Of a stretch of 64,000 nt of DNA, positions 20,970-63,644 are shown one piece after another. The translations under genes were made by a program, and so were the position numbers. Within the stretch, counting starts at the first letter, position 1. The number at the start of each line of letters is the position of its first letter. Location: the NCBI RefSeq assembly GCF_037975245.1, contig NC_092565.1, positions 2,925,499-2,989,498 on the forward strand, in the 5' to 3' direction. The notes under the pieces were generated by a model. The model did no database searches. It was not told the origin of the DNA and was given only the letters and a program-made list of their open reading frames with translations. Source of the DNA: Apostichopus japonicus (taxonomy: Eukaryota; Echinodermata; Holothuroidea; Aspidochirotida; Stichopodidae).

Positions 20970-20978
20970 GATTCCATC

Positions 20979-26960: not shown

Positions 26961-26997
26961 ATGGATTGCCAAGTGATTATATTCTTGGCTTTGTTCG
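26961..26997 (+). CDS. Exon 1 of Skeletor-type gene 3: start codon and signal peptide
   Basis: The ATG at 26961 begins MDCQVIIFLALF, a hydrophobic secretion signal, and ends in phase 1 at a GTAAGA donor. It is the nearest upstream ATG exon that gives the correct phase into the first DM13 exon. The paralogue has an equivalent 40-nt exon at 48311. Confidence 0.8.
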
Positions 26998-29900
26998 GTA
27001 AGAAAGATTCAGGGTTTAAGTGCCTGACTTTGTACTAGTAATACTGGATTAGGCCTAACGTTAGGAATTGTTACTGTTAGAAACTATAGCCCAAAGTCTA
27101 AACTTAGGCCTATAGTATAGGCCTAAGTTAGACTTTACTTAGACTAGGCCTAGTCGTAAACATCATGGGAGAAAGCTGGTGCCACTCTAGCTACTTGTGA
27201 AAGAAACCAAAAGGGTGAAGGAGGGGAGGGCAAGAGAGGAGGGTACTTGGTGGTTGCCCTGGGATGGGAAGTTGTGGATTGGGGAGGGAGAGGATACTGA
27301 TGAGTTCTGCCTTTTATTAAAAATATACTTAATAAATTTTGCAATTTTAATATAAAAAACTGGCCACAGGGACACATGAAAACATCATTTTTGTATTTTG
27401 AGACACTTTTATGGATTTTTCTACCCATTTAAAGGAATTATACAGTAAACTTAAACATATGCTCGAAGTAATGAAAACTTTTCCTTGCTTCGAGCGCAGT
27501 TTGAATTCTGACCTTTACAAGTATATATTCTTTCCATTACTGGCAGAATTTTGTCATACCATCGATGAAAACACATAGCTAAAGGATAAAACTAAATAAC
27601 TGAGCAAAATTAGCTAACAAAACCTTCACAAAAGCAGCATATCTTTTTAAAGAATGTGAACGCCCTTACTATCACGAATTTACCATAGGTATCATGATTT
27701 ATCATCATGCCTGCTAGGAGAGACATGCACCTGGAAGTGGAGAAAGTTTATGAGTTGGGTAATGATGAATGCTTAGCTAGCCTGGGCCTGCAAAATTTCA
27801 TAGCAGATGCACAGATGCCTAAATTTTAGCCTTTTATACATGTGGTATAAGTGAGCAATTTTAGACAATTAAAGTCCTTATGAAGTATGGTATTACCGAA
27901 TGATCTACTTAAATGAGAAGCAATACTTTGTAATTTCTCTTGAATGATGGACATAATATAAACTTGTGCAGTTAGCAAAGTAAGCGGGTTATTATGTGCC
28001 ACTAGCCCTTTAAAAGCTATCAATGTTACAAGCCTAGAGTGAACAGTTTCTCTGTTTATAAGGCCTTCTTACAGTATCTTCTTCTTTTTTTTTTGTGCAA
28101 AAATAATTTGGGTATCTTTAAAAGTGTCATCAATATAAAGGCGGTGGCATTTGAAGCAATAAGGCTTAGCAATCGGGAGGGTCCGGGTTCAATACCCGGC
28201 CAGGTCATAGTAAGGTGGGTTTTTCATACAAGAGCAATCTACGATTTTCCCATCTGAAATGACGTTCTAACTTGGAAAGGTTCCAACTTAGAGTAAAAAT
28301 GTTGAATTGGAAGCCACCCCAAGTGTAAGTTGTAATCCATAAGCCCTTGTTGGTTTCTCCTACATTTGTGGTCGCTTAAGCGTCGTAAAAATCACTGCTA
28401 ATTACTATAAAAACTTTAAAAAATATGATAGTTCATCCTAAGTATTGTTAGCCTACACAATAAAGATTAAATGTTCTGCTGAAGAATAAATTAAACTATA
28501 GAGAGCACAAAATGTTGATATGAGTCTAAAAGATCCTCCTTTCATTTTATAATACTAGTATTTTCTGTAAACATGGACAAATTTATATAGTTCTTTCAAA
28601 TTAAGTATCTATTTTGCCTTGTAGCCATGACCATGGGTGCTCAAACAGAATTTGGTAATCTCATCGGTCGTTTCACGGATCTGCCAACTTTACATGATGT
28701 TGAAGGCGCAGTTTACGCAGTTGATGAAAGGACGTTTTACGTGCGTGGATTCTCCTATGATGGAACGGGGCCCGGTAAGATAAAGGTTTTATCCCATGAT
28801 TTAGTCAGTCATCAGTTCTTAAACGCTTAAATTTAAAGAAACTAAGCGGTTAGGAACATGGAAATGGTAAATGCGGTCATGACGAGCTAAATGTAATTTG
28901 ATGATTTTACCAAGTTGTATTTAATACACTCATGCTCATAAATGTCCAATAGTGCATGCAGCTATCATTTATGATGGAAGGACAGTAGTGGTCATTAGTA
29001 TGGTCTGTAACTCTTGTTTTATACCCGTTCCATCATTTTTCATCGCGAGAAGAAGAAGTCTTTAAGATAGAGATAAGACCAACGGTACCACTTTGTCTGA
29101 ATGTGTAGGATATTTACCACATTGAGGTTTGTATTTGTTTACAGTCAGAGATTCCTCTACATAAAACCTATAGTAGAGCACTACTAGAGCTGATATGGAA
29201 CCTTGGGCATTATGTGAAGGTGTCATCAATTTAAGGTGACTCCCCTTTTGCTTTGTGCTACTGAGAGCATATTGATATAGTCATCACAAGGCAAACAATG
29301 ATATTTAACCGTTGGTTAGGTTCCTGCAAAGGAATGCCAATACTGTATTTGTATAGTGTATACTAAAGTTAGGAATATATGGTTTCTTAACAAATGTATG
29401 GGTATGTAAACAGTGTTTGTATATCGCAATTATTATTTAGAGTTTTTAGACAATATAACACTGATCTAGACTTCATTGTACCACTGGATCCCGAGAACAC
29501 ATGTATTATATCGCTTAGAAATATGCATATATGCTCCCCTTTAATATTTCATTTAATTGGGATGGAAGGGTGTTGACTGGAGGGGGGGGGGGGAGGGGGG
29601 TAGTCACTTTCATGTAAACAAAAAATGGTCATATTACACATATGTGAGATCACATGGTCTAAGTCGGGTGGGGTGAGGGAGACACGGCAATTAGAAGGAC
29701 CAAGTTTTCTTTATCATCCTCTCTCTTTTGATATCTCTATGTGACAGTAAGTACTGTTGATCAAATTTGAATTAGATTTTTATAACTAATATAATCAAGC
29801 AGGATGAAATTTCTCTTATTGAAAACATTTATTGCGAAGCGACTCTTTTCAAAATTAAGACAAAATGCTGGATAAAAAGAAACAAACAATCAAAAACAAA

Positions 29901-32900
29901 ACAAGGAAATGATCAAAGTACAATGACCAGCACTGTTAACAATAAGAACATCACCATTCTTAAACAAAAGGCTTAGGTAGCATATTTCATCTGGTCCTGT
30001 TTAAATATATACTACAGTCATTTGGTTGCAATCATGTCATTCCCATCCCTAGCTACCATTGTAACTCTGTGTGACTGTTTCACAGTATACAATGTAATAT
30101 TTAGTTCCTTACATACATCTTGCTCATTGGGGTCACAATGACCCAAAGCTGATGTTTTTGCATGAGAGAATATATGCAAGTGTTTCAACCTATCAGCCTT
30201 AATTCATAATAATAATAACAATAATAATGATAATGATAATAATAATAATAACTAGTCTTATATAGTGCAGACTCCTACCACAAAACTTGTTCAATGCACT
30301 TTACGGGTGCTGAAGATGCAAAAACCAATAGAGTTGAGAAAAAAATTGGTTTTAAGACAGCGTCTTAATTGAATAATAGAATTCCATAGAGTTCCATAAA
30401 CGTGGTGCAGCATTCAGAAAGCTACAGTCAGCGAAGGATCTCGTACGTGACATTAGAACATGAAGTTGAAATTGATAATGCAAACGTATTGGTCTAGCTT
30501 GCTGATGTAAGAGAAAATTAAAGTACCTGTAGGTTGGGGTACCAGTTTGCATGACAAGAAAAGTTAAGAATGAGGATTTTGAAGTCAATACGGATTCTTA
30601 TTGGTAACCAGTGTAGTTCTGTCGGTAAAGGAGTGATGGGGGTAATTCAATCAGTAAAATACTGAAAGCTGAGAATGAGAGAGATCATTTTAAGGTTAAC
30701 AGCAGCAGGTGGCTACAGTGAGTGTTTTTGTGCCATGTGATGGCTTTGCAAAAATAATCTGAGACATACAGTAACTGCAATCAACCTCATCTTATTTGAT
30801 GGAAGTGGTTACTCTGAACAACTCTCCCAAAAACTATCAGATATCATGTTTCATTTGTGAGATATCCAAGCTTAAATGTCACTTCCAGTGTATACTGGTT
30901 TCATAATGAGAAACTTTTAAGGTTTAGTTTCCCTCGGTTTTTCTGCCCATATTTGCAGATTGATTACTTAATCTTAAATAATAAAAAAACTGGTAAAAGC
31001 TAGAGTAGGACTAGACTTTTTCTTCCCATAGGGATAATGTGATAGTTTTTACAAATGGTATAAATGTCACACATTTGGGTGGATTCACGAGCAGGTCGTT
31101 TTTGGGAAAGTTGACCATGCAAATGAGATTGAACATGTCAACACATGCTGGCAGCTATTTTCATCTGGATTTATTTCAATGGGATCACATCCAACGGATG
31201 GTAAATGATTCACATTTATAATTGAAATTATCGTCATTCCCAACATTTATTTATTACTCACTCTACAGCGGCATACTTTTACACTGGAACAACCCCAAAC
31301 CCAGCAAATGGAGGCATTATCATTCCTCTGGAGGACGGGAAGTAAGTTAACAAAAGATGTCAGTGTACGTCGCAGACATTTGGCCAAATTTGCTCCTAAA
31401 AGGGCTTAATTTGTAGCTAGTTTCTGTTAATGTCGTTAATTAGTTTAACAATCTCATGATCTGCTATATAGTTTATACAACAGTGGTCGAAACCATGGAC
31501 AGCATTAAAATGACTTTTGTGGGTAAAAGAGATGTTTGTTATATTCTCTGCTTCCAAACTGACAATACGAGCTTCAACGTATTGAAGTCCTAATTATGAA
31601 GAAAAAACCTAAAACTGCAGACATTGGTCTCTCTATTATTCATTGAATAAGTTTGTCCTAAAATTTGATAAAATTTGGATTTATTCACTCTTCTTTATGA
31701 CTCGTCATCATTCAGCTTAAATCCTTCAGACGTTTGTGAATACTCTTAACAGGTCAAAGTTTAAGGGTTTTTTTTGTTCAGACATGATTTTAATATAAAA
31801 TTTGTGTTTTATATTCTGTAATATTACTTTTTTTTTCTTTTTTTTTTAGATTTAGTCAAATAACAGTCCATTATCTAACCTTCTGTCCTTGATGTAAATG
31901 TTTTCATACATGGTTAGAGCACTTTTTCAAAAGGCAATATTAAACTTAAGTCAAACTGGAAGTTAATTTATTTTGTGTACTTATTTAATAGTTCTTTAGC
32001 AATAATTTTTGGATTTCCCTTAAAAACAAAGTTACAACATTGAAAATTAACTTTTTGAAAAGATTTTTTTCTTTAAATATGTATGTGGTATTTTACTATT
32101 TTGCAGTGTGATGATTCATAATTTATAAACATGTAACCACTTCCTGTAGGGTAAAGTACACACAATGAATGATGATTAGTGATACTATAAAATGCTTGGT
32201 GTGGTTGATAACTGACCTATTGAGCTTAATTCCCTTTTGAATCTAAAAAGCAAAGTTCAAACAAATGTTCTCAGTGACACAGCAAAAATGTATTTGTTAA
32301 GTATCGTGCATGGTAGTGTTTCCAACAAACAAATTCCGGAGACTGAAGGACTACACTGAAAAGTATGGACTGAATCACCAAATCAACTCATGCGTGCCTT
32401 TCAAAGAACCATAATACACAATTTGAAAATATTTATTGCCGGATCTGTATTTGTCATTGGGTGTGCGGTGACCATTGTGTACGTTAATAAACAAAAGGCG
32501 TTGCAGAACTACAAGCATTGTCAGGTACAACAGAAACAATTCCATTGTCTACATATTTCAGCGGATTACACATAGTAACTGTGAAGCGAAGCGTATATGC
32601 GCCAATTCTTTGGCAAGTAAGGTCTGTAGCCTCTGAAAGGGAGTGAAGACTCGGGCACAAAGAAACGTCTGATGACGTCTGATGCTGGTAATCTGAAGTA
32701 GTTTTGAATGAGGTGTAACAGAAGTGTTAGACACCACCATCAATCCCAGAAAATACACACACAGCTTGCTACACTAGTGTACAGTCAATACTGTACATGC
32801 AGCTACGGTCAATACCCACAACACAGTATACATAGCAGCGATGGACATCTCAGGTCCAGATAAAAGATAACACGTTTCATTGTAGCAACAAGAAAAAAAC

Positions 32901-35900
32901 TTCACTTGCAAACAACGGAAAGTCAACTTTTTTCAGAGGGCAGCACACGGTTTGGGACAAGTCTTCAATGCCTTTAAATCACAGTCATTGAGGGTGGTTG
33001 CAAGTGTGTCCTTGCGGTGATACAAACACCTTGGAGACAGACCATGAAACAACGATGTCTCCCTAAAGAAAGAAAGGAAGAAAATATATCACAGTGATGC
33101 AAACAGTATATATCATGGCAAAATAAAACCTTGAACCTCCAAATTAAGTCACATGGCCTAAATATTGGAGACCGTTGTTATAAGCTTCGGACTTGCCAAA
33201 GTTGCAAACAGACTATGCGGGTGCATAGCACTAAATTTCACATCATTACAACTGTTAGATGTACTGACATATTATTGCCAACAATATAATATAAAACAAT
33301 TACTCCACTGTAGGGCTTTATACATAATTAATAATAACTGTTACTATAGACTGAAATGTGTCTCTAATTGGCTTTCACTGTGTAGAACTGTGTGTCCTGG
33401 AGGTTAAAGATCATTGGTTATATACTAGAATGTCAAATAATGGTCGTTCATGTTTGAATAAACATTCTGCTGCCACCCCCATAATTAATTAATTAGTTAA
33501 TTAATTAGCCATGCACTCTCAATATCTAGGAATAATTTGGAGGGCATTAGTGAAGAACTTGCAGTGACGTACTTTTGAAATCCAAATATATTACCTGTAA
33601 CATGTTTTTTAACATGTTAACAATTTGAGGCAACATAGATTCATTACCTTTAAAAGGATCCATTGTGTTGCACTTTGAGTGGCTGTGCAATAAGTGCTCA
33701 AAATCTCAAGGAGGCAAAAATAATATTTGCTGGTTCGGACGTCATACGTAAAGTGCTCTGCTAGGTGAATAACAACCTTGAACTTTATGGTCCCAATTAT
33801 TATTTTCTCTGCATGAGGTTAGTTTACACAGACCTCTGGTTAAAATACTAGTCTATTGATGGTTGTAATTTTGTTTATAACAAAACCTGGACCCAATTTT
33901 ATGCTCTGCCTGCATATGACGTACATGGCTGGAATCTTCATGTCCTTGTTTCAATATTTTACATTTTTATGTCAAAGTGACTTGAATGACAGGAAATCTA
34001 AAACCTGCGTAAAGTTTAAGTTTGTAGGTTGGATTTAAAAGTCTGTGGTTTTCTTATAGAACCTTGGTTAACTATAGACAGGTACATTCAGTGGATTGTG
34101 CAAGATGAAGCTACTTTAGGCAGTTATTTCTTATTTTTTAGGCAGTTTATTCTTTCAATACTGTGACTGAGACTAGAGCACTGCTTAAAAGTGAATTTGC
34201 AATCAAAGTAAGAGACATTTTATGTGTACACAGTTATATGTTTATAAAATTGTGAGGGGGTGGGGGTTGTGGGGAAAGAATCTATTGAAGGTACTGTAGG
34301 GAGGTGAGTGTTTTGTGATATTCTGAGCAGGGGTAATCAAGACCATCCTCGGAACGCCAGGAAATTTTCCAAGTTTTCTTGGCTTCTATCCTGGAGCTAT
34401 ACGAACAAACAGGTCAAGTTAGGTTTCACTTTTGAAGTGTAACTTATTTTTATCTCATTGTTTGCAGTCTTGAAAAACTTGGAAGTTATAACAATGAAGA
34501 TTTGCTTGTGACCCTCCCTAATGGAGTACTCAGGAACTACAACTGGATCTCCATCTGGTGTGAGAGTGTTTCAGTAAGATAATTATGAAACGATGGCATA
34601 AATGTTAACTTTGATTACATTTGGTGCTAATATGTATTAATGGTTCAAGCAGGGGTGAAACCATGTATATTTCTGTTGGGCGGGGGGGGGAGGCTGGGGG
34701 CCTCAGCCTACCCCCCACTGGCAAACAGAACATTACAAAATTCTTAGTGTTTTTTACAGTATATATATGACATGCATGTATATATATGATATATACAGTC
34801 GCAAATTCTTCAACGGTTTGGTTTAAAAAGTTCAAAAAGTTCAAACATTTTGCATCTTAAAGCATCCTCCATTTTTCCAAAAATATCTCAAAAGGGAGCG
34901 GAGACATATCCCATTACACCCTTTCCATGGATGACTTATTATATCTTTGCCTCCTACCCCCCCCCCCCACACACAAAACAAAAAGGGTGGTTGTGCCCAG
35001 TGGCATCACCAGACACTTCAATCCTTACTGGTTTCGAACCTCTGGACATACAATCAGCATCCATAGCCTAGTGGTTAGGGTGTCCGCATACAGAGCGGGA
35101 GGCCCTGGTTGGAATCCCGGTGGAGGCTGGAAGTTTTTTCACTGTTCTTGATTCTCCAACTCATTACGATTTTCTTTAATATATATATATAGATATACCT
35201 ATGTATGTATATGTACAGTACTGTATACTTATCGACAATCTCTAATATACTGACTTTCAAGATCCAAAAAACAATTTCATAAATGGAAGCTCGGACAGGC
35301 TGGATGACCGATGCTGCTCCTCTGTTTTTTTTGCTCAGGTTGATTTTGGACATGTCAAACTTCCTCCTGGATTCACATATCCATCTCCAGTCAGCCTGGG
35401 TTATTTAGGAGAAAATCCTCTTGTACACCAGGTGGAGGCAGACGATGTCATAGTACTTAACTCTCGTGAAATTCAGTTTGTTCGTTTGAGTTATGACGGC
35501 GCAGGTCCAGGTAGGTCTAGCAAATTATTATGATTTATTTTCTTCATTTTATGACTATGAGACTTGATAAACAATGACTTGGATTTAATAATACACCTAA
35601 TTAACTATGTAATGGTTTCTGTCCACCAGTGTGATCACTTCATCTTTAAGAACACGTTTCATATCTATACAAACATGGTAAAGAAGAATCTGCAGGACTT
35701 AATCAAATGATCGAGAAACTTTAAAATCAATCGTTCATTGACTCGGATACATATACATGGTGAAGAACTTCAGTCGATTATTTCTGGGCTGTAAAAGCAC
35801 GGTGACACAAAAACTGAAATATCTGAGCTATAATCATGCAGAAAAACATTCCGTCAAAAATAATATCTTGACTTCAAAACTTGATGTTGTTTTCCTTTGG

Positions 35901-38900
35901 ATATATAAGCTGTACACTTTCCTATTTTTTTAAACCTTCCGATAGGTGCATATTTCTGGACTGGCGCTGGAACACCAGACAGTGGAGACACCAGAGTTCC
36001 TCATCCAGCAAATCAGCCGTAAGTAATAACTCTAAGTTAAAATACCGAAGGTACACCCTTCAAGTTCAAGAGATAGTAGAACTTGTAGCGAAGCAGCTAT
36101 TCAAGAATCCCCAGTTTTTGACAACGAAGGTTTTTCACAGAGTGTCTCTGGACTTGTTACATCAGCCATTTGCTACAGGTCTGTGAACAAAAGTATAAAT
36201 GGATGCAGGCAGCTAGTAGCCTGTAGGCAATGTTTACTTGAGTGAGAAAATGGGGACCATTTTGGTGATAAGGGGGTGAACCATATCTCATGCTAGCAGT
36301 AGTATGGAAATGTAGTGATTGCCCTATAGCTATGCCAATCATGTAACGGTACAGCAAAGTGGGGCAAGGTTTATTCTCATATACAGCATCTTGCACATTG
36401 AGTTGTTAATATTAAACATTCATGTTCTCTCCCTTTTCAAGAAATCAGATCCTTCCTCGTTATTCTAATGATGCGGTCACCATAATCCTGCCAGAGGGTT
36501 TCACAGCAGAAAACGTTGACTTCATCGGCATTTGGTGTGAAAGGGTTAACCAGAACTTTGGTCATGTGTCCACCAGCAATTTTGACCTTACAAATATACC
36601 ACCTTACATAGAAAGAGTCGAGACCACTGCTCCTACCACGGTAAGCTTTAATTTAAGATCACTGAGGATAAATATCCCCAACTTTGGGTAACATTTCATT
36701 AATTAAGTATAAATCTTAAATTTAGAATTGTTTTGGGGGCTTGAAAACGAAATTTGTCTCTTTGCAACTTACCTAAACTTTAGAGATTGTTTGAGTCAGG
36801 CCAATGATATGACCGGATCTCTGAAATCATTAAAAATTGCTTCTGGTTCAGATGTTCCAGCAAGTTTGTACCATCTTTTCTCAAATTTTTGTTCCCACTT
36901 TGTCTCTAATTGTTTTCTTCCTTGCCTATGTATCTAAGTACACATGGCATTAAAGCTATTTTAACTGTATAAACATGCAATGACCCCTTTAGGTGGGTGG
37001 AGTTTCATCGATTCCTTCCATCAAATTTTCATTGTTTCCAGAGCTTGGATAACTGCAAAGTGTTGGTACCAGATCGTTTCCATATTGCCTGGACTATCGA
37101 CCGATCCAATAACAAGATCACCTTGGAGTTTCAAGGAGTCATTTCTCTGAACGAGTATCTGGCATTTGGCATCAGTGGTTCGTCGTCCGCAACTCTTATG
37201 ATGGGCTCCGATGTCGCCGTGGTTTGGTTCGATCCGAGCGATTCGCAACCCAGAGCCGTGGATTACCATCTGAATGATTACAGTCAGGTGAAGACAATTT
37301 TAACGTTCCTGGGAAGTTTTTTTTTTTCAGTCATGGAGGGTTGTAGGAGGGGATATTTGATGAGTTGTGCACCAACAAAACCCAATCACAGTTTCCCATT
37401 CTAGTCAGAAATAAAAAAGTTGCCATCAATAGTGCAGTGGGTTTTATGTTCACTTTGGTTACCCTAGGGGCATTTAAAGCCACAGTAAAAACATATTAAC
37501 ATTTCAGAGTATTAAAAAGATGTAGTACTGTTTGTGTGGATGAAAGGTTGGTGTATTAAACAGCATTTGTCATCAGTTGGTCTCCAGTGATCAAGAAGGA
37601 TTAACCAGGATAAAAGGTTGTTATCCAGCTATCATCATTGGCAATGTTAATGTGTACTATCTTAAGTAGTACTGTTTACAAGTTGTTGATTTTTTTGTTA
37701 TATGTTGCTCCATTTCAGTACATGACAGATGCAGGCATCTCTTCATATTACTCGTTTTTAATTGCATCGTTTTATTTCAGTGTATACCAGAGGAAGGAAT
37801 AGGTGCCTGTCCTGACAACATACAAGGCGGTGCAGATAATGTTCAGCTCATCAGTGGAGAGCTCAAAGATGGATTGGCCACTATCACCATTGAAAGACCT
37901 CTTAATCCATGTAAGTCATAAAGATCTTCCCTGCCTATAACAAATACCACCCTTGTCCTCTCTTTTGGGCCAAAAACAGTTGGTAATGCTAGCCACACTG
38001 AACGCTCCTCTGCACAAATTCATGATTTAACACAGTGTACTATTTCATTGGTCAAGCCAAATTTGTCTTCACACAGGGAAGTAGTCCTGGTCATTAGAGC
38101 ACTTGTGTTAACAATTATACGGTGGCTGGTCAAATCATTAGGTGTACTCATGGATGAATCCTAATAACAGTACTTGGGGTAGTTTATGCTATCAAGTAAA
38201 AAAATATTAATGCTCATGAAAATTTGAGGAGGACTGTTTTTCTATAGGCAGGCTTGACCATCATGGTCTTGCCAGTAGGAGAATGTGACCTCTTAATTCA
38301 TGTAAATCTATCCAGTAGGAAAAAAGCAACCTCTTAATCCATGTAATTCCATCCTGTAGTGAAAAGTGACCACTTAATCCATGTTAGTCTATCCAGTAGT
38401 GAAAAACGACCTCTTTAATGCATGTAAGTCTATCCAATGGTAAAAGTATCTGGTACAATTATACATTGTATACAAAACCATAGTTCTCAGTATTTGTTAT
38501 GTCAACTGGAAACATTAATTAAAATTTTACCCTATATGTTGTTCTTTGAATTTCAAAAGAGAAATTACTTCTGGACCATTCTTTCAACTTTTAATTTTGT
38601 TTTCTTGAGAGTATATTGCTATGTCTACAGTATTAGCTAGTGTTTCTACCTTGTAAGTCTCAAGAAGTTATTAGAACAATGTCATTTAGCACACAAAATT
38701 AACTTTTTGATGAACAGTGTAAATTTTAAGAGCAAGTGACCCTTGGTTTGACCTTCTCTCTTTGTGTTCATCTGGATTACAGCTGATCCCTTGGATTCTG
38801 AGATTATCACCACCGGCGATGTATATGTCTCCTGGGGCATCGGATTTATCAACCCCACAGGTCACGCAGCAAAGCATGAAATCAGAACCAGTGGTATGCT

Positions 38901-46444: not shown

Positions 46445-46498
46445 GTTTGACTCTTTGCTTATGCAGAAAAGACGATGGCAATTAGCTGAAGTAAACAA

Positions 46499-46850
46499 TG
46501 ATCTCAGGGCTGTGTCACCCCCAGGCATTCAAACTACAATCTTGATCACCCCAATAGCAGTATCAATACATTGATCTCAGGGCTGTATCACTCCCAGTCA
46601 TTCAAACTACAATCTTGATCACGCCAGTAGCAGTATCAATACATTGATCTCAGGGCTGTATCACTCCCAGTCATTCAAACTACAATCTTGATCACCCCAA
46701 TAGCAGTATCAATACATGGATCTCAGGGCTGTGTCACCCCCCAGGCATTCAAACTACAATTTTGATCACCCCAATAGCAGTATCAATACATTGATCCCAG
46801 GGCTGTGTCACCCCAGACATTCAAACTACAATCTTGATCACCCCTGATCA
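46499..46850. repeat. 73-bp tandem repeat, about 4.8 copies
   Basis: Units begin TGATCTCAGGGCTGT near 46499, 46572, 46645, 46718 and 46792. They contain ATTCAAACTACAATCTTGAT and AATAGCAGTATCAATACA. The copies are 90 percent or more alike by eye. Confidence 0.93.
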
Positions 46851-48310: not shown

Positions 48311-48475
48311 ATGGCTATTTTACTGTCCATAGTTCAGCTCATGTTGGTTGGTAAGTATACTAAGATCTATATAATGATCAGAAATGGGGAATAAACAATC
48401 ATTACTAACATTGTTATTTTATTATTTGTAGCTATGTATATGTATATATATATATATGGTTATATATATATAAAC

Positions 48476-48527
<52 letters not shown>

Positions 48528-51500: not shown

Positions 51501-52165
51501 GAATTTTCAAATTCTCAACAAATAATGGGCTTAAAACATTGAAAAGTAGGGGCTTTCGGATATTGTGGGCCGTGACGTAGAATCACCTACAAAAGCAATG
51601 ATCCATAGGACATGCAATGAGGTCGAACATGAGGTGTGACTGGTGACAATCTTTAAAAAGGTTATGGATGGAAAAAAACTTTTGGGAAATACTTGGTTCT
51701 CAGGCAAAAGTGTACATCTGGTTGCTCATTTTGAGAAGCCCGAGAAGTGCCATTTCCGGTGATCTGGGGGGTATCAAAACCAGAAATTTTCTTGTACGCT
51801 GCGCGCCAACCGATGGTGGCGCTCCGCTTAGATAGTAATTCGCGCCCCCCGGGTTAGAAAATCCTGGATACGCGCCTGATGTACACGTACTATATTATGT
51901 ACTTGCTCAATTTCTATGTATTGAGCACTTTTGCAGCATTAAGTGAACAACTGAATCTTTGTTTAATATATGTATATATATTTACATATATATATATATA
52001 TATGTATATATATATGTTGAGACTAGTATATATATGTATATGTCTATATATATATGTCTATATATATATATATGTCTATATATATATATATATTATATAT
52101 TATATGTGTATATTATATATGTATATTATATGTGTATATATATATGTGTATATATTTATATGTAA

Positions 52166-52213
<48 letters not shown>

Positions 52214-54288
52214 GACAGAGTAGAAGCTAATTCCAGTGTGTCCTAGTCAAATCCATGGCACTGTGGCAGTAGCCAGTAATACAAAACAAACAATACAATA
52301 GTATCACAGTGTGATAACAGTTTGAAGCTTACAGCCAACAGCAGGGTTGCCAGATTCTCTGAAACTCAACGGGTCATTTTTAGAAGGGCCAAATTGAGTG
52401 AATAAGGCCAAAAACATTTTTGTTCGATTTCTGCCCCTGAATACGGATCGGACCTAAAATTTGGTATTTGGGATTCCTTTTTTGATAGGGTGACTCTAAG
52501 CATGTATAGGCTGCTGTTGTACAGTAAATAGGTTGTCAAGCTTGTGTGGGGAAAAAAAGGCTTAAATATACCGCTATGCCTAATTAAATCTATGTTTAGT
52601 CATAAATGGGAACGAGATATTTCAATTTCCACAACTCTGAAACTTTGTGTCAGATCTCTCTAATAAGTTGATCTACAAATTCTCATTGTCCCAATTTTTT
52701 TGTCTCTCGCTGTCTCTTTTTCTCTCTTTTCTCATTTATCTCTCTGATTTGGCTGGGGGGGGGCTACTGCATGCTCCCATTGCCCCCCCTTGCTACGCAG
52801 TTGGAGAAAGTCACTATACTCTTAGCTAGTAAACCTGTGTGCTCTGTTCTCATGTTCTTTACAGTACATAAATATATCACACTTTGTCTACAAAAGCCTA
52901 TGTATTTCTTTATATTAATTGGATGATTCATTATCTTCAGTACAATCTGTTATTTGCCGAATCAAAGTTAGAATTTGCATAACCTTAAAAAAAAGTCAAA
53001 AATGGTGTAGCGATAAGATTTGACAATTGAGTTCAGTATTTCATCTTTTCATTGTTTTGTCTGAATTAGTTCTCAATGTGTTCTGGGCTATATTCTTTCA
53101 AAAGTATCTCATTGTCTATGATTATACTAACATTATGATTTAAATATATTTGCATATGCCAAACTAAGTTTTATCGACTTAGTCTATCCATACTCCATCG
53201 GTTAAATTACATTAATTGGCTTAAAATCTGTATCAATTGGAAACAATAATTCGGTTAGGTCGTTTCTAACGACTTAATCCGTCTGTGTGTGTGCACACGT
53301 GCAATGTTGAAATTACATAATATATCATGCTACAGCTTCCAAGTAACAATATCCGATTCACTTCGGACGGTGGATATAACGATGGTTTAAAGTTATAAAC
53401 ATACACAAGATTATAACAAGCATGGTAGCAGGTTATCTCGTTGGGTAGCGAGCATGGCGAAAGAGAGGGCAATGGGGACCTCGTAGCAATCACAGAAAGC
53501 ATAATGATAGGATAATATTTAAACCTGCTGGTTACGCTACTGGTGGATAGGAATACGTTAAAGGGTGTGAAGACTCGCGCAACAGAAACGTATAATGCCG
53601 GTAATCTGTCTACGACATATTAGATTCGAATGAGGTGTAACAGAAGTATTAGACACCACCATCGATCCCAGAAAATACACACAGCTTGCTACCGTCGGTA
53701 ATTAGACACTAGTGTACAGTCAGTACATACAGCTGCGGTCAATACCCATAGCACAGTGTACAAACCATACAGGGATGGACATCTCAGGTCCAGCTAAAGA
53801 TAACAAGGTATCACAGTTCATTACTGTCTGCATTTTGTAGCGACAAGATAAAAACTTCACTTGCAAGCAACTGAAAGTTAACTTTTTCAGAGCGCAGCAC
53901 GCAGTTTGGGGCGAGTCTTGAATGTCTTTAACCCACATCAGTCTAATATATACAATCATGTACAACAAGAGAATTCAAAGTTATTTTTAGTCCTTTCATG
54001 GTCAGGTCTGTGTTGCAATAATGAATAAATCATAATACATTTGCATTAAAATAATCTTTATCTTTATTTCTCTGTTGTCAATTTAGCTCTCTCATCAGCT
54101 GCTATCACCAACTTTGGAAACTTGGTAGGTGAATTTGAGCGTGATGGTACCAGCCATCAAATATCGGGTTCCGTCTTTGCTGTTGACCAAGCCACTCTCT
54201 ACATTCAAGGATTCAATTTCGATGGTGAATCTGATTGTAAGTCATTTTGGTTTCATATCGGTCATGCATGTTGCAAAGTCATACATAT

Positions 54289-54321
<33 letters not shown>

Positions 54322-57300
54322 AACTTTATTGTCCATTTCAGAAAACAAAAAAAACGGAAAATGATTTCCCGTCGACAGTAAACATAAAATACTAGTAGTG
54401 AATACAAACAAAACCATACAATAAACAAGCTATTAGTGAACAACTACGAGAATAAAAGTAAATTAAGCAGAACCAGAAAAGTAACAGAAGCAGCACAGAG
54501 AGCTGCAAGTGACCGATCATACACTGTGGCCAAATCGCTTTGCACGCCAGTTAAACAAGTGTATTGCCTCAGGTAAGAAAGAATTACGGAACCTGGACAT
54601 TTTAGTATCCATGGGGCACCTGTAATTGTATCCTGAATCTGTTGAACACGATAAGACTGTAAAAAGGGTGTGTGTGATCTTCTTTTATATTATATGTCAT
54701 AGTAATGAAGACACACAGGTATTTTTTTATTGCAATCCTATACTTTTCTAGTTTGTCTGACTTTCTTCAGCCATGCATCCTAGTATTTCTTACATTTCAT
54801 CAAAATACCAAACTTTTCTAATTTTTTCGTATACTATTTGGTTTTGACCTTGAAATGCTATTTAATGTTTGTGAAAGTGGGGTTATTTTATGAAAGTATA
54901 CATTTGGGAGTTCTGTTGTTGTGGTATCCCTGCCAGGTATGGTCAACTTAGCAACATATTAACATAGTCGAGTTCATTTTCAATAACATCACCCTTTTTA
55001 TTTTAATCCAACATGGCTTCTTTCGCGAGTTCCTGATTGCGGGAAGATCACATATACATACATACATACAATCTTTACACATTCATTGATCCAGTGTGAG
55101 GATGAATAATAATATATTTTGGCATATATCTATTTCAATCCTAGTTTTGTTCCACATACTTTTTCCTTCTATTTTCCACTCTTTTTGTCCAACTTTTGTC
55201 TTCTTCTTTTTCACTTTTGGTCTCATTTGTCTACATTTTCAATCCTACATTTCACCTACATTTTCAATCCTACATTTCACCTACATTTTCAATCCTACAT
55301 TTCACCTACATTTCACCTACATTTCCACACAAACTGTGCTTGACACACAGTCTGGGAAATTAGGCACGTGTAAAATTCATTTCAAGATAACAAGTGCAGA
55401 GTAACAGTATCATCCAAAATTTACCACGTTGACTCGTGAAATTTGTCAGACAAACTCGTTCCTAACTTAACAGCTGGAGAAGAATAATGAACATCATTAA
55501 TTAGCAATTGATTAAAATTTTCCAGTTTGGGTAAATTGATTTGCATATTTTCAATAGGCCTTTTGATCAGTTTAGTGAATGGATGATGGGCGGTTTTCAT
55601 TTTCAGGATAATATATCATTGCCACAGTAAGTCAAACTTCACAAGCCACAAAAGAATTGTTAAAGATATTACTTGACCTTATAAATATGCCATATAAACA
55701 GCACCAACAGTACATGGAATAATTTACTGGATGGGGGAATGGGAAAAGTTCATTTATAGGCTAGGGCAAAATAATTTCCTGTAGGCAGTTGGTGTTCTAT
55801 TTAGTTATGACCCTGCATGCTTCTGAATATGGTTTTTTATGTATGTGGCTAATATACATCAGCCATATCTCAAACTTTCTGTTCTTTGATCACATTGAAC
55901 CTGGCAACGCAGCACTCTTCCTGCTTCCCTTAAAACTAAGTATCCTCATTGAAGATGTAAGTAACAAGCAGGGTTTTTACAGTTGACAAACTCTTAACCA
56001 AAAATAACATCTAGCTATTATTGCAGACTACAAACATCATGCCAGTGTTTATAGTCTTTATATAGTATTAATGCCATTTATGTTCAAAGTTATGTTCTTT
56101 TTCTAAATGATACCCATTACACTGAGAAAAGAACTTTAGAAGATGCTAGATTCTTTAATTGTGAGAGTGAGCGAGAAAAATCTAAACAAAACTGTCAGCA
56201 AACTGCTTATCAGCTATTACAAAAAGCCTATGTAGGTAGAACACTCATATTGCACCTGTAGAAAATACAGGAAACTGTACTAATATATCATATTCTTTAA
56301 TTTCCGTTATGTTACCTAAACTCTTGAATTCACAGGTCTGTGTCATTAGTTGTAAGTGTATGTGTTTTCTTTCATGCAGTGCCTTTTGACAATGACAATG
56401 ACAACAATTTATTTCCAGCAATTGTGAACACTACATGAATGTTTAACAAAGTATAAACAAATATTTTGATATACCATACAATCTAGAGAGACAGGTACAA
56501 AAAAAAGAGAAAAAAACATGCATCATGTTAATTTATATACAATATATAAGCTATACAAATGCATGGAAAAGGAGAGAAAAAAGCACAATACTTATAGAAT
56601 GTTTTCCCCATTTGAATATAATTAAAATATACATTTACTGGAGAGAAATTGGTGAAAGGAAACAAAACTCCAAAACTAAAATTAAATAATATGAGAGACA
56701 AGAAGGCAGATATAATCTTAGAGGAGAACAACAACAAACAAGGGATATTTTCAATGAAGAAAAGAAAGAATATATTCTGTAATTAATAAATTGATGAGAC
56801 ATTCCATCGCTGTTTCCTAATGTGCGTTGTTACTCTTGAACAGTTTTGACAATTTTAAAGACTTCATCTGCGGTCATTTATTTACTTTTGCAAATTTTCT
56901 TTTCTACAGGTGCGGTGTTCTACGCTGGCACGTCAGACGACCCTAGTAGTGGAGGTGATGTCATCCCTGTTGGAGATGGAATGTAAGTAAAACCATGTTT
57001 ATATTTCTCTATTATCAAACAAATAGGTAATAAAGGATGCAAAAGAACCAAGGAATGGAAGCTAACAAAGTAATATTGATGTTAACGTGGTTTTGTGAAT
57101 AATTTGCAAATGAATTTAGATCTCTTAAGAGTATCTCATGGAGAGATCCAACTTGACCTATAAAAGCTAGCTTGCTGACAATTATAAAGTGACCTAGTTT
57201 TGGTTCATTATAGTTATTTTCCTATTTAGGGAGCTGATTTATTTCCATCAAACCAACTGAGTGAACACATCTACATGTTGTTTGATTGATGAACTCACAG

Positions 57301-60300
57301 TTAACTAAACTGAGTGAACTGGAGAACTTTCTTAAAAACAAAATGCCCAAATCAGACTACTTTATTCTAAAAACACTGTTAATCAATACTCAACCTTTTC
57401 TGCAGGTGTATAACTTTGTTTAATGCTCCTAAAATGTTAATCACTGTTTGACCAATTATTTACTACATTCTGGATAATGTTATTGTTATGAAGTATTTTC
57501 TAGTTGTTTTTTGGAAATACATGGATTGTTTACTTGGGGTACACCCCTCAGTCCGACAAGTTTTCAGTCCGAAAATAAAATACACGTTTTCAGTCCGAAA
57601 ATGAAATACACGTTTTCAGTCCGAAAATAAAATACACGTTTTCAGTCCGAAAATGAAATACACGTTTTCAGTCCGAAAATAAAATACACGTTTTCAGTCC
57701 GAAAATGTTTTCAGTTGGGGAATGAAAGCAGTTTTAATGCCATAATATCCCCAATAAACTGTGACAGCCCGAACTGATAGTAAATAAATCGATTGAATCT
57801 TTCGTATTTACTCATAATTGACAAATAAGGAGTTAAGTTTTAGAAAATATATTGGAATTTTCGGTCCCCCTGGGACCTTCGTCAGCAATATTGGCAGTCG
57901 AATGAAAAGTACAAAATGTAACACAATGAAAGTATGACGCTAGGTTTAAAGTGTAAGTTGCATTGATGGAATTAGAACCAAACAAACCATGACTATACAG
58001 GAAGCTGATTAAGGAGCGAAGAACGGATTACATATGTTTGTATAGAACTGATAGTTGTTAAGGGGTCCCAAGTCTTTGTTGAGGCCGGTGATGTGAGACT
58101 TAATACAAAAGATTCAATCGATTTTTTTACTATCAGTTCGGGCTGTCACCGTTTATTGGTGATATTATGGCATTAAAACTGCTTTCATTCCCTAACTGAA
58201 AACGTGTTTCTCATTTTCGGACTGAAAACGTGTATTTCATTTTCGGACTGAAAACGTGTATTTTATTTTCGGACTGAAAACGTGAATTTTATTTTCGGAC
58301 TGAAAACGTGTCGGACTGAAAACTGGTTTTTTCGGACTGAGAACGTGTATTTTATTTTCGGACTGAAAACGTGTCGGACTGAAAACTGGTTTTTTCGGAC
58401 TGAGAACGTGTATTTTATTTTCGGACTGAAAACGTGTCGGACTGACAACGTGTACCCGTTTACTTGCTCAGAATGTTAAAATCTGACCACCTCACATTGA
58501 ATGTTTTCTTGTTAGTTCAATTAGAGCTCTGAGAATTTTAATTAATATAAATCTTTCATCTTTGTCCTTTCTTTAGGTCAGATATCCTTGGGGTTTATCG
58601 AAATGAGGATATTATGCTCAGTCTGTCTTCAGGGAAGATCACTGACTATGCTTCCTTCAGTATTCTGTGTGAAGAATCTAAAGTGAGTCCCTCATATAAC
58701 AGGCCACAAGTATAATCCAGTTGACACCCAGAAGCAGTTAACGTTCCACACCATATTACTTAGTTTACTCCTTAGTTTTCAAATGTCCAAATGTGCTTAA
58801 TTGCACATGATTGTGTCAATTAGAGTGGGCACATGCTCAAATTTAAGGGCACTTTGAAGTAGGGAATAACTCATGATGTCACTGAGTATATATACCAGTT
58901 ACTGCACAGGCTTATAAAGGGTGCGCAGGACTAAATAGCTTGCTGTACCTGTTGGTGATACATGTGCCTTTTTTTGGGTTGCCAAGTAAAATATACATGC
59001 TGAAACTAATCTTATCTGTTTTTTTTTTCCTGTTTTTTTTGGCAGTGGAAAGATGTCGTCATTATATTTCAAGCTATCGTTTGCTATTTCCAGTGGAAAT
59101 GAGTCTTATAATTCAGACAGCATTTGCACACATTTTTAGTTTAAAGACTGTTGACAAGTATGGAAGTGTTCAAACATTAGATCAGAATCAAAACTTGCAT
59201 CACTTAAAATTCAGTCAAAGTTTACTGGTTTGTGGGCATGTTCCCATGTATTTTGTATTTGATAAGCTGTTTGATGCATTATTTGGCATAGAATGACCCT
59301 TTTTTTTATATTTATTCCTGTGTCAAAAAACTGCCTGTACATCTTCGGAATTGTACAGCAATTTCACATTTTGTGTAGCAGTGTGCGATATGTGAAACTG
59401 GATAAATGACTCCCTGCTAGTCTAATCCTGCTCTCTATTGCAGACCTACATATCACATAACAAGCTTCGATCATCAGGAATTTACTTTTGAATTATTATC
59501 ATGTTTGGTTGGTTTTCAGACATTTAACTCTGCTGACCCCAATGATGGGTCATTGTGGGGCATCTATATGCCAAGAATGACAGCATTCAAATGATTCTTG
59601 CTAAGATATCTTGATTGCAAGCAAGGGTGTCACACACAAACACACACATACAACACACGCACATGCACGCACTTGTGTCTTCTACATTCAGACCGAGGAC
59701 CCCAATGTTTTTTCCGTTGGTCAAATCATCCAGACACCCCTGACTAACCTTTAACAATACCCCTTAACAATTGAATTCTTCTGAGGGCTTGGTGATTCTT
59801 TTTTTTTTCAAATGATATCTGAGGACTTGGAATTCCTTTGTCCTCAGGAAAAAAAACATAACAAGTGCACACACACACACACACACACATTTGAGTGGAT
59901 ACAATTCTGATGCCTGCCTTCAGCATCGAATTGAAATTTACCTCTTCATACTGCTATATGAACTGAGACCAGCTCAAACTGTACAGTTAAGATATCAAAA
60001 GTTAAGTTTCCTGCTATAGGTACTTGAATTAAAGGCAATTGTCTTACCTTCTCTTCCTAATTTATTCGTTTCATCTTTAAGGAATCCTTCGCCAAAATAA
60101 CTATACCCGGAAACTTTGAGACACCCGAACCAGCACATCTCGGAGACTTTGGCTTTGAACGAAGAGTCCATAATGTGCATGCAGACGATGTCATCATTCT
60201 AAACCCAAAGCAGATTCAATTTGTCAATTTGGACTACGATGGAAGAGGCCCAAGTATGTACTCTTTTGTATTCAAGTTCTTTCATTGCTATTTATGGACT

Positions 60301-63300
60301 GATGCAGCTTAAACTTTTCATGAATGTTATGAAGGCTTGTATATGTTGCCATGGTTATGAATTAGAAGGCTTGTACATGTTGCCATGGTTATGAATGTTA
60401 TGAGGGGTTGTACATGTTGCCATGGTTATCTCCACAGAGACTGGCAAATACAGACACAGAGCCTTGTAGGTATTTGGTATAAACTTTGTGTATTATGTAA
60501 ATTTCACCCATAATGATCTAATGATCTGAAATAATTGTCAATTGAACTGTTGGCTTGCAATGTTACAACAAACTATATAAATCATAGTGAGTTGAAAAAT
60601 CCAGAACACTAGTGAAAAAATTCCATTCTCCACCGTAATTCGAATCTAAGGCCCTTCCGCTTTATATGCGGACACCCTAACCACTAGGCTATGGATGCTG
60701 ATTGTATGTCCAGAGGTTCGAAACCGGTAAGGAAAGTTGTAATTCCACTGCAGGCGTTTGTCATCTGTATTGAACAATGCTAGTTCTGTTTTGGTGACAT
60801 ATTTGCCTTTCTCTAGAGAACAAACATGATGCTAACCAACTCGAAAATCATTTGTGATTCATAAGCTGGCATATGTATTTGGCAGTGGGGGATGGTGCAT
60901 GTTTGCCTAATTTGTCGATTAGTGTATCCATGTGTATGGCGATGAACCGTACTATCTTGTTATGGTGTCATAATTATTCAGTGACCCACAGTACACTAGT
61001 CATGGTTGCTCAATGACCGGTAACCCTTCATAATTGCTTGGTGACCCACACCAGTACCCTGATCATGACTGCTTGATGACCCACACCGGTACCCTGGTCA
61101 TGATTGCATGATGACCCACACCAGTACCCTGGTCATGCTTGCATGATGACCCACACCGGTACCCTGATCATGACTGCTTTATGACCCACACCGGTACCCT
61201 GGTCATGATTGCATGATGACCCACACCAATACCCTTATCATGACTGCTTGATGACCCACACCAGTACCCTAGCTGGTCATGATTGCATGGTGACCCACAC
61301 CAATACCCTTATCATGACTGCTTGATGACCCACACCAGTACCCTGATCATGACTGCTTGATGACCCACACCAGTACCCTGGTCATGCTTGCATGATGACC
61401 CACACCAGTACCCTGATCATGACTGCTTGATGACCCACACCGGTACCCTGGTCATGATTGCATGATGACCCACACCAATACCCTTATCATGACTGCATGA
61501 TGACCCACACCAATACCCTTATCATGACTGCTTGATGACCCACACCAATACCCTTATCATGACTGCTTGATGCTCCACACCAGTACCCTTATCATGACTG
61601 CTTGATGCTCCACACCAGTACCCTGATCATGGTTGCTGGGTGACCCACACCAGTACCCTGATCATGACTGCTTGATGCTCCACACGGGTATCCGGGTCAT
61701 GATTGCTGGGTGACCCACACCGGTACCCTGATCATGATTGCTGGGTGACCCACACCAGTACCCTGGTCATGATTGCTGGGTGACCCATACCAGTACCTTA
61801 ATCATGACTGCATGATGACCCCACCTGTACCTTAATCATGACTGCTTGATGACCCACACCGGTACCCTGCCTATATTCTGTAGCTATAAGAGACATGTAA
61901 CAATAAACTCAAAAGTTATTTTTTCTTTCTCTTCTGGCTGTTTTAGAAGCCTTTTTCTGGACTGGAGATGGTACCCCAGACAGTGGCGATATCAAAGTTC
62001 CACTTCCTGCAGACAATCCGTAAGTTCAGTTTAAAGGCATTGAAGACTGGCCCCAAACCGCGTGCGGCCATCTGAATAAGTTAACTTTCCGTTGCTTGCA
62101 AGTGACGTTTTGTTTGTGTCGCTACAAAATGCAGACAGTAATGAAACGTGATACCTTGTTATCTATAGCTGGACCTGACATGTCCATTGGTGTATCGTTT
62201 GTACACTGTGCTGTGGGTATTGACCGCAGCTGTATGTACTGACTGTACACTAGTGCCTAATTACGGATGGTAGCAAGCTGTGTGTGTATTTTCTGGGATT
62301 GATGGTGTTGTCTAACACTTCTGTTACACCTCATTCGAAACTAGGTCAGATTACCGGCATGAGATGTTTCTTTTTTCGCGAGTCTTCACACCCTTTAACA
62401 AAACAGCTACTTCAGCTGGTGACATATTCATAATCTAAATAACCAAAAACTGCATTTTGACCACTACGCATGGATGAAATAATAAAACAAGGCATTAATT
62501 AATTAAATATACCTTGCCAAAGGTCACATTGTCAGTCTTGGCTAAATTTGTGCGAAATTGCATTACACAAACTAATTATTGACTGTATGGTTGATGGGAC
62601 TTCAAACTCGATGTGTGTGCACATGCCTAAGCATTGGTTGTAGCATCTGTGTGATTAACTATGCCATGCAGTTAAAGTCATCCAAATAACAAAAGACAGC
62701 ATTTCTGCCATGATATGTATACCAATCGGATAACATTATGGTCAAAACCTTCAAACACAAGTAGACTATCACAGACTTTATGTCAACAGTCCATTAGTTA
62801 ATGTAAAACACCAAAATCCATGTTATCAAAGTTCAAACAGCCAAATTTGTGCGAAAATGCATTTTTTTGAAAAACTATACTCATATTGACCATCAGGTCG
62901 AAAGTCTTCAAATTTGATGGATATATGCCAGGGCATAAGTTGTAGATCCTGCGTGGCTAATGACATCATAGGGTCAAAGGTCAGAGGTCAAATAGCCAAG
63001 AGGCAGCATTTGGCCATTACATGTGTGAGTTGGGCAGCAATTTATGTCCCATTCTTGCACAAACAGTCGTATAGAGTACAATATCTCGTCGTCGGGGACA
63101 TAACAGGTAGGAATGAGACAAAAATAGGTACTTGTTGCCTTTGAACTCACTTGAGGCTGACCATAGATGTTGGAGTGGTGTAATATAATGTATTTGCCAC
63201 GATTGGTTGTGTGTTGCTTACCTTTTGCTAGTATTATCCCATAGGAATAACAATTGGAATTATAAGAATAATAGGAATGATAAATTTGGAGTGAATCAGA

Positions 63301-63644
63301 AGAAATGGAGCTCCGAAAGCAGCACTTGGCATATATTATGTAGATGTATGTATTTACTTCAAACCTAACCTTTGTTGTGAGATTTTACTTTTGTTCAGCC
63401 AGTCAAATCACAACATTCAATAGTCTGGTTGATTTGTTTTTCCAGGGATAAAATCTTACCCAAATATTCAGGTGCTACAGTAACCATCACTTTACCTGAT
63501 GGTTTAACAGTGTTTGATGTTGACTTCATTGGAATCTGGTGCATTGCAGCAAGACAAAATTTTGGTCACCTGCTGATTAAAGATTCCGATCGCAACAATA
63601 TTCCTCCATTGATTGAACCAGCAACTACACCTCTTCCTGCGACA
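48311..63644 (+). CDS. Second Skeletor-type DM13-DM13 protein, 3'-partial tandem paralogue of gene 3
   Basis: Exons: 48311-48350 (ATG, signal peptide [13 protein letters not shown]), 54087-54236, 56910-56982, 58577-58682, 60082-60253, 61947-62019 and 63446-63644, all GT-AG with matching phases. The joined frame has 271 codons and continues past the window. It encodes two DM13 domains: the first ([29 protein letters not shown]) is degenerate, the second ([38 protein letters not shown]) is canonical. Exons 2-7 have exactly the lengths and phases of exons 2-7 of gene 3. By analogy a DOMON exon should follow within a few hundred bases of the right edge. Confidence 0.92.
48529..48680. mobile_element. 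Imperfect hairpin element
   Basis: The left arm ATTATTAGAGAAAACCAGA and the right arm TCTGGTTTTCTCTAATAAT are reverse complements. Matching inner arms include TTTTTAGAA and TTCTAAAAA. Sequence CTCATAATTGACAAATAAG inside also occurs within the foldback element near 57812. Confidence 0.65.
49193..49854. mobile_element. Shorter copy of the CAGG-ended element
   Basis: It begins CAGGCACATAGCCAAGGGGG and ends TTTCGCGCCTG, resembling the ends of 49926-51878. Its interior (about 49268-49830) is a direct repeat of about 51266-51870, including AACTGTGTCTGAATTTTC and TGTGCAACATTATGGGTATG. Confidence 0.7.
49926..51878. mobile_element. 1953-bp element with inverted ends and ATGTA target duplication
   Basis: The left end CAGGTGCGTATCCAGG and the reverse complement of the right end (CAGGCGCGTATCCAGG) differ at one base. 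ATGTA flanks both sides (49921-49925 and 51879-51883). Inside are a poly-G/GCGCGC tract, a polypurine tract (about 49975-50110), a third related fragment near 50510-50640 and the segment shared with 49193-49854. No intact transposase is visible, so it is probably non-autonomous or composite. Confidence 0.7.
51965..52212. repeat. Long TA-rich microsatellite
   Basis: TATATA with interspersed TATGTATA, about 250 bp. Open frames through it encode only Tyr/Ile alternations and are not genes. Confidence 0.95.
53558..53931 (-). mobile_element. TTAA-ended MITE, copy B (374 bp)
   Basis: It begins TTAAAGGGTGTGAAGACTC and ends GAGTCTTGAATGTCTTTAA. The interior is closely similar to copy A in reverse, including the block CTTCACTTGCAAGCAACTGA. 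Confidence 0.88.
54284..54650 (-). pseudogene. Retroelement 3' end with GATA-repeat tail
   Basis: On the minus strand a frame encodes [18 protein letters not shown] and then GHSV and a stop. This resembles the ORF2 C-terminus of L2/CR1-type elements. Downstream on that strand are a 3' UTR (TGGACAATAAAGTTT) and a TCTA/GATA microsatellite (54290-54320). It sits just after exon 2 of gene 4. Confidence 0.72.
55236..55325. repeat. 25-bp tandem repeat, about 3.5 copies
   Basis: The unit is CCTACATTTTCAATCCTACA plus TTTCA. Phe/His-rich short open frames here come from the repeat. Confidence 0.85.
57537..58457. mobile_element. Foldback transposable element, 921 bp, with 9-bp target duplication
   Basis: The ends are GGGTACAC and GTGTACCC, flanked by GTTTACTTG at 57528-57536 and 58458-58466. 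Both arms (about 57537-57804 and 58105-58457) are long inverted repeats built from 26-bp subterminal units (CAGTCCGAAAATAAAATACA core), with an A/G variant alternating to give a 52-bp higher-order unit on the left. A spacer of about 300 bp includes CGGTCCCCCTGGGACC. The long arms and 9-bp duplication suggest a Mutator-like foldback element. No transposase is present. Confidence 0.88.
59862..59890. repeat. AC dinucleotide microsatellite
   Basis: A short (AC)n tract in intron 4 of gene 4. Confidence 0.9.
60575..60733 (-). mobile_element. tRNA-derived SINE, copy 2
   Basis: The reverse complement matches 35023-35180: leader TTTCGAACCTCTGGACATAC, A box TAGCCTAGTGG, a B-box-like GATTCGAATTA, then TTTTTTCACT. 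It lies in intron 5 of gene 4. Confidence 0.8.
61000..61865. repeat. 35-bp minisatellite, about 24 copies, ending about 80 bp before exon 6 of gene 4
   Basis: The unit TGACCCACACCAGTACCCTG plus GTCATGATTGCATGA is repeated, with CAGTACC, CGGTACC and CAATACC variants and CTGCTTGA or GCTGGG alternatives. It lies immediately upstream of the branch-point region of exon 6. Confidence 0.95.
62031..62398 (+). mobile_element. TTAA-ended MITE, copy A (368 bp)
   Basis: The terminal inverted repeats TTAAAGGCATTGAAGACT and AGTCTTCACACCCTTTAA are imperfect mirrors. It lies 11 bp after the donor of exon 6 of gene 4. Full-length relatives are at 53558-53931 and 32634-32977, and a fragment is at 23082-23137. 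Confidence 0.88.
62510..63040. repeat. Degenerate duplication in intron 6 of gene 4
   Basis: Two segments share ordered phrases (AAATTTGTGCGAAA, GTTGTAGCATC or GTTGTAGATCC, CAGCATTT, GCCAT). They are about 300 bp apart and strongly diverged. GGTCAAAGGTCAGAGGTCAA near 62972 is typical of such repeats. Confidence 0.45.

Follow-up and report, generated by a model that had tools for sequence, protein, structure and literature searches.

The window analysed here, a 64,000-nucleotide (nt) stretch of contig C5 (C5:2925499-2989498), holds two neighbouring genes of the Knickkopf/Skeletor type (Knickkopf being a cuticle protein of insects) on its plus strand, which we call gene 3 and gene 4 (Table 1; positions without a contig name are those of the window). 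Gene 3 lies in the window in full, with GT-AG borders at all 14 introns and a stop codon at 42983-42985. In its product Pfam recognizes the DM13 domain (PF10517) in two stretches (E 2.5e-42), one DOMON domain (PF03351; 60.3 bits, E 2.8e-16, cut-off 32.7) and, in the C-terminal region, an At5g54830-like domain (PF25489; 40.2 bits, E 3.9e-10, cut-off 27). Hydropathy places the strongest hydrophobicity at both ends of the protein, as in a glycosylphosphatidylinositol (GPI)-anchored secreted protein. Gene 4 likewise gives DM13 in two stretches and a DOMON of 55.5 bits against the same cut-off. Both genes are thus predicted to encode a hydrophobic start (in gene 4 by way of a likely exon 1), two DM13 domains, a DOMON domain and a GPI-like tail, which is the Knickkopf/Skeletor plan, and the DM13-DOMON identity proposed for them in an initial annotation of this stretch was confirmed by Pfam in both.

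While gene 3 ends well inside the window, gene 4 continues past its right-hand border. The initial annotation had expected a DOMON exon of gene 4 there and had also considered that all downstream exons might be lacking. When the whole genome (671.6 Mb, 35 contigs) was searched with the gene 3 protein and the flank beyond the window was read, the DOMON exon was located at once past the border, followed by later exons with open frames and matching phases. The gene extends to about C5:2996248, where the final exon provides a hydrophobic tail and a stop, with an AATAAA shortly 3' of it; gene 4 is therefore a full-length gene and not a window-limited fragment. At its other end, candidates for exon 1 occur at two places on the plus strand of the 64 kb and at none on the minus strand, and exon 1 of gene 3, on inspection, is also of this kind. 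A different product could be envisaged for gene 4, namely a short protein of two DM13 domains without a DOMON, like the insect Knk3-5' product, with a stop after an acceptor at 63776. Indeed, an acceptor-like site before 63776 yields an immediate in-frame stop, and a comparable short form is produced by insect Knk3 according to a published study (PMC4140639). However, the DOMON and later exons exist downstream, open and phase-matched, so that such a form would be an alternative at most; as the main product it is highly improbable, and we rejected it.

Table 1. Exons of genes 3 and 4 and DOMON loci of the same family in the genome. Where several lengths are given, they are those of genes 3/4/g5/g6/g7/g8.
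Feature	Position	Strand	Length (nt)	Description and basis
Gene 3	26961..42985	+		complete Knickkopf/Skeletor-like gene, 15 exons, 663 amino acids; exon table, GT-AG borders, open frame, Pfam
Gene 3 exon 1	26961..26997	+	37	start codon and beginning of signal-peptide-like stretch MDCQVIIFLALF; exon table, hydropathy
Gene 3 exon 2	28625..28774	+	150/150/147/147/150/159	first part of first DM13 domain (DM13-1)
Gene 3 exon 3	31269..31341	+	73/73/67/73/73/73	middle of DM13-1
Gene 3 exon 4	34468..34573	+	106/106/106/109/109/109	end of DM13-1 with conserved Cys
Gene 3 exon 5	35339..35510	+	172 in 6/6 genes	first part of second DM13 domain (DM13-2)
Gene 3 exon 6	35946..36018	+	73/73/73/76/70/73	middle of DM13-2
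Gene 3 exon 7	36442..36640	+	199/199/187/175/181/187	end of DM13-2 with conserved Cys
Gene 3 exon 8	37042..37287	+	246/246/246/243/240/243	main DOMON exon; Pfam
Gene 3 exon 9	37781..37910	+	130/133/136/130/133/133	DOMON; Pfam
Gene 3 exon 10	38783..38893	+	111/111/105/111/111/111	DOMON match ends inside; Pfam
Gene 3 exon 11	39501..39680	+	180/174/183/180/183/177	middle region
Gene 3 exon 12	40599..40792	+	194 in 6/6 genes	C-terminal region conserved among paralogues
Gene 3 exon 13	41460..41487	+	28	microexon (LETIYAPPV)
Gene 3 exon 14	42364..42527	+	164/164/164/161/161/167	
Gene 3 exon 15	42857..42985	+		through stop; hydrophobic GPI-signal-like tail; hydropathy
Gene 4 exon 1 (likely)	48311..48350	+	40	splicing gives signal-peptide-like start
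Gene 4 exon 2	54087..54236	+	150	
Gene 4 exon 3	56910..56982	+	73	
Gene 4 exon 4	58577..58682	+	106	
Gene 4 exon 5	60082..60253	+	172	
Gene 4 exon 6	61947..62019	+	73	
Gene 4 exon 7	63446..63644	+	199	
Gene 4 exon 8	C5:2989616-2989861			DOMON; begins 118 nt beyond the window; 76% identity to gene 3 exon 8
Gene 4 later exons	C5: 2991064, 2991607, 2992703, 2993637, 28-nt microexon candidate, 2995472, 2996129			
DOMON loci on C5 (5)	genes 3 and 4; g5 at 3.74 Mb, g6 at 15.87 Mb, g7 at 18.07 Mb	g7 -		
DOMON loci on C3 (7)	g8 at 4.75 Mb; others at 5.18, 9.21, 20.19, 21.29, 21.36, 21.56 Mb			

The initial annotation had reported that exons 2-7 of the two genes agree in length and phase. A scan for AG..GT intervals of exactly these lengths (150, 73, 106, 172, 73 and 199 nt) with an open frame found all six pairs in place, with equal phases, GT-AG borders and open frames. 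Spacing alone would be no evidence, because AG..GT pairs at each of these distances are abundant (29-40 in 11 kb); it is spacing together with homology that counts. For exons 2-7 the two proteins form a gap-free alignment in which 126 of 257 residues are identical (49%), in keeping with the clear divergence of the proteins noted before. Identical nucleotides number 159, 171 and 82 at codon positions 1, 2 and 3 of these 257 codons, a pattern suggesting that both regions are coding, that purifying selection acts on them and that silent sites are almost saturated. The introns had been said to share no obvious alignment, and blastn of the five lying between exons 2-7 of gene 3 against their gene 4 counterparts indeed returned no match. 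The wider statement of an identical exon architecture holds for exons 2-7 but not beyond them, where exon 9 (130 versus 133 nt) and exon 11 (180 versus 174 nt) differ in length.

Several repeats were seen in the introns. An interspersed repeat of about 350-390 nt is present in three copies (32636-32984, 53560-53937 and, inverted, 62030-62396), in introns of the two genes that do not correspond to one another. A 26-nt minisatellite forms two inverted blocks (57548-57808 and 58102-58382), resembling mobile-element ends, in intron 3 of gene 4, and a 35-nt minisatellite of 24 copies (61028-61869) ends 77 nt upstream of exon 6. A direct repeat of about 600 nt with 81% identity (49271-49837 and 51267-51866, 2 kb apart) would fall in intron 1 of the same gene if its exon 1 is right.

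The meaning of the matching exons becomes apparent from the rest of the family. We compared six genes, namely genes 3 and 4 and the paralogues g5-g8, over 12 exons each (exons 1, 13 and 15 were left out), leaving the phase free in the scans and using the top-ranked candidate exon each time. With gene 3 as reference, all 60 exons compared in gene 4 and g5-g8 show the same entry and exit phases, and the best candidate for the microexon, exon 13, is 28 nt in all six genes among the phase-fitting lengths that were scanned. Thus intron position and phase are conserved in this family, while exon length drifts in steps of three (Table 1). Two introns occupy the same alignment columns in all 12 DM13 domains (67-68 in phase 1 and 92-93 in phase 2), and because they are equivalent in the first and second domains, the exon plan is older than the gene duplications. 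In gene 3, exons 5-7 form a unit of 444 nt with phase 0 on either side, a layout that fits the duplication of a domain in frame. Given that paralogues keep their phases while lengths drift by threes, equal lengths in genes 3 and 4 need no special constraint.

Some observations weigh against so simple an account. The calls of two exons were narrow, each over a runner-up with a different entry phase (g5 exon 3, 33.3 versus 32.9; g7 exon 10, 113.3 versus 111.9). Moreover, 10 of the 12 exons have equal lengths in genes 3 and 4, compared with 3-6 of 12 in the other 14 pairs, and although the pairs are not independent, this exceeds the 6.1 predicted from identity (z 3.5), just as their 4 gap runs fall short of the 7.7 predicted (z -2.2). 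We read this excess of shared lengths and scarcity of gaps as shared ancestry with slow indels, which leaves room for extra constraint. One may then ask whether selection acts unusually on exon length in these two genes, be it on account of splicing or of protein spacing. Such selection would fit the surplus of shared lengths, the absence of any indel across 257 aligned residues despite 49% identity, and the constancy of exons 5 and 12 in all six paralogues; if gaps arose as often as they do on average in the other 14 pairs, a gapless run of 257 residues would have p = 0.02. At the pair's own gap rate, however, the same run has p = 0.18, the exons of the paralogues do vary by threes (exon 7 from 175 to 199 nt, exon 2 from 147 to 159 and exon 11 from 174 to 183), and even within the pair exons 9 and 11 are unequal, so that we consider unusual selection on length quite unlikely. 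The strong constraint on exon length that the initial annotation saw as special to the pair is accordingly not required: conserved intron positions and few indels suffice, even though the pair shares more lengths than predicted. That the matching exons of genes 3 and 4 represent an inherited and largely ordinary family plan is well supported by the comparison of the six sequences.

Whether the two genes are also each other's closest relatives, as a local duplication would imply, is a separate matter. In a tree of the joined proteins they group together at 93/94, slightly under the 95/80 that the program sets as its mark, and a tree on exons 8-12 gives 89/91. The local duplication proposed earlier is thus moderately supported by the whole protein but not by its DM13 half, whose tree gives the pair only 45/15, so that the sister relation rests on the DOMON/C-terminal half. 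In the DM13 half, gene 3 shows about the same identity to g7 (0.51) and g6 (0.50) as to gene 4 (0.49), compared with 0.65 between genes 3 and 4 in exons 8-14. These results speak against sisterhood and would be compatible with genes 3 and 4 being neighbours only, either because an old cluster was broken up or because gene conversion made their DOMON halves alike. Fourfold sites are indeed identical more often in exons 8-10 (24 of 49) than in the other exons (39 of 114), but the difference is not significant (p = 0.08), and six comparisons of second-half introns between the two genes gave no match. Furthermore, the 199-nt exon 7 is limited to genes 3 and 4 among the six genes, and no other pair has as many exon lengths in common. 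A neighbourhood without sisterhood is therefore unlikely, and genes 3 and 4 are probably sister genes.

The search of the genome with the gene 3 protein returned at least 67 matches, among them at least 12 DOMON main exons, on two contigs. Each of g5-g8 contains DM13 (PF10517) in two stretches and a DOMON of 60.2-75.9 bits (cut-off 32.7), and Pfam listed no domain other than DM13, DOMON and At5g54830-like in the six paralogues. The last of these exceeds its cut-off of 27 in gene 3 and g5 (36.7 bits) only and stays below it in genes 4, g6, g7 and g8, which counts against the account favoured here; the likeness to At5g54830-like domain proteins, presumably plant proteins to judge from the name, is divided in the same way. 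Knickkopf/Skeletor proteins have a conserved C-terminal region of about 200 amino acids after the DOMON, and in a comparison of the six paralogues with one another this region is conserved. Genes 3, 4, g6 and g7 have the DM13 cysteine in both domains; it is absent from the first domain in g5 and g8, and from the second in the C3 copies L027, L028 and L029, and in the stretch read of the other three C3 copies that exon did not appear. By eye, one Met (before x-x-S-D) and one His (at the end of 'NPTGH..KH' or its equivalent) are kept in the DOMON of all six translations, which would be compatible with heme binding, as we take the conserved Met and His of DOMON domains to be heme ligands. It is also worth noting that three g8-like DOMON loci on C3 (L030, L031 and L032, at 21.29, 21.36 and 21.56 Mb) are near-identical (100% over 1501 nt, 98.3% over about 2 kb), which may reflect very recent duplications or assembly copies.

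The initial annotation had further suggested that the cluster might continue to the right. A profile of the four DM13 domains, run on the window, gave only matches at E 2.8 or worse beyond the 12 exons already assigned, and tblastn with the gene 3 protein (E <0.05) over C5:2915499-3059498, which takes in about 63 kb downstream of gene 4 as well as 10 kb to the left of the window, found no third copy. The nearest relative found to the right of gene 4 lies about 0.74 Mb away. No relative was confirmed in prokaryote and viral collections, and a search of solved structures gave no homologue, with one match at E 0.77. The pair adds two new members to the known Knickkopf/Skeletor family, although automatic annotation in public genomes may well list them already.

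The assignment to an echinoderm in the initial annotation was supported by the mitochondrial contig, C35. Over the stretch used, codons of the COX1 gene on C35 were compared with its best match in the PDB (7o37_a, which we take to be mouse): AAA was aligned with Asn at 10 of 11 positions, TGA with Trp at 13 of 13, AGA with Ser at 4 of 6, and ATA with Ile at 12 of 23 and with Met at 3. The genetic code of C35 is code 9, which is used by echinoderms and flatworms. In addition, COX1 and COX2 are separated by a frame that by eye is ND4L-like, as in the echinoderm mitochondrial order, and code and gene order together let the assignment stand. Further COX1 matches with TGA codons were seen on C29 (14745-16086 and 30842-31219), perhaps from a second mitochondrial contig or nuclear copies. 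Elsewhere in the window we noted an exon for MIEAP (mitochondria-eating protein) at 13056-13424 (+; PF16026, E 2.5e-21), probably with a further one at 12283-12588 (E 0.058, under the cut-off), and a reverse transcriptase fragment at 18620-18835 (-; RVT_1, E 1.1e-5, under the curated cut-off) that by eye is like a long interspersed nuclear element. GPAA1, a GPI transamidase subunit, is encoded at 20979-22868 (+) in one uninterrupted frame with its first Met at 20979 (Pfam Gaa1, E 7.3e-142 on 20970-22868), which is possibly a retrocopy or an old intronless gene; this frame adjoins a gene whose product looks GPI-anchored.

We put the probability at roughly 80% that genes 3 and 4 are full-length and probably sister members of the Knickkopf/Skeletor family, that their matching exons follow an inherited plan, and that their products work as surface proteins along the lines sketched here. 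An older duplication of DM13 inside one gene, with two introns at equivalent places even then, would have come first. The exon plan was then probably copied by whole-gene duplications, with lengths later altered by small in-frame indels. Genes 3 and 4 would stem from a local tandem duplication, the other copies having presumably dispersed. The proteins are predicted to be held on the outside of the cell by a GPI anchor. There, the DOMON and the Cys-bearing DM13 domains might act on a polysaccharide matrix outside the cell through redox or binding chemistry, much as Knickkopf acts on chitin in insects.

Two things follow for the family. The exon match is settled, in that intron positions and phases are stable and lengths only loosely so, and an echinoderm turns out to have a sizeable Knickkopf-like family of at least 12 DOMON loci. 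One could go further and propose that Knickkopf-like surface proteins have undergone a large radiation of their own in echinoderms, in which copies multiplied recently on one chromosome and some lost the DM13 cysteine, so that a family that organises chitin in insects was diversified for another extracellular matrix; we hold this larger proposal only tentatively and regard it as somewhat doubtful. We know of no chitin cuticle in this animal, and the role of Knickkopf-like proteins there is a testable question.

Among the matches listed from the open-licence literature, no echinoderm Skeletor/Knickkopf family of such size was found; there is one annotated transcript, from a brittle star, labelled 'Protein Skeletor' (Q9VGY6) in a table of Notch-affected genes in arm regeneration (PMC7217437), the likeness being one of label alone. 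In a 2014 study, Knk2 and Knk3 are confined to insects, and the sea urchin has a Knk orthologue and no orthologue of Knk2 or Knk3 (PMC4140639). The same study gives Skeletor as the Drosophila orthologue of Tribolium Knk3 (TcKnk3), and the DM13-DM13-DOMON core of these proteins is common to genes 3 and 4. Insect Knk3 is spliced in several ways, which give, among others, a long C-terminal form and a short one without a DOMON. A DM13 protein of a worm is named among GPI candidates in another study (PMC6742230), which, like PMC4528330, PMC10216261 and PMC8180256, contributed nothing further about the present family. With its 15 exons, gene 3 differs from LdKnk of the potato beetle, for which nine are given (PMC11354708). 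Insect Knickkopf binds and organises chitin and protects it against chitinase; a redox or ligand-binding role is predicted for the DM13 and DOMON domains (PMC4140639). Compared with insect Knickkopf (DmKnk, TcKnk), the family described here is larger and is found in an echinoderm; the comparison with the insect proteins is one of domain plan.

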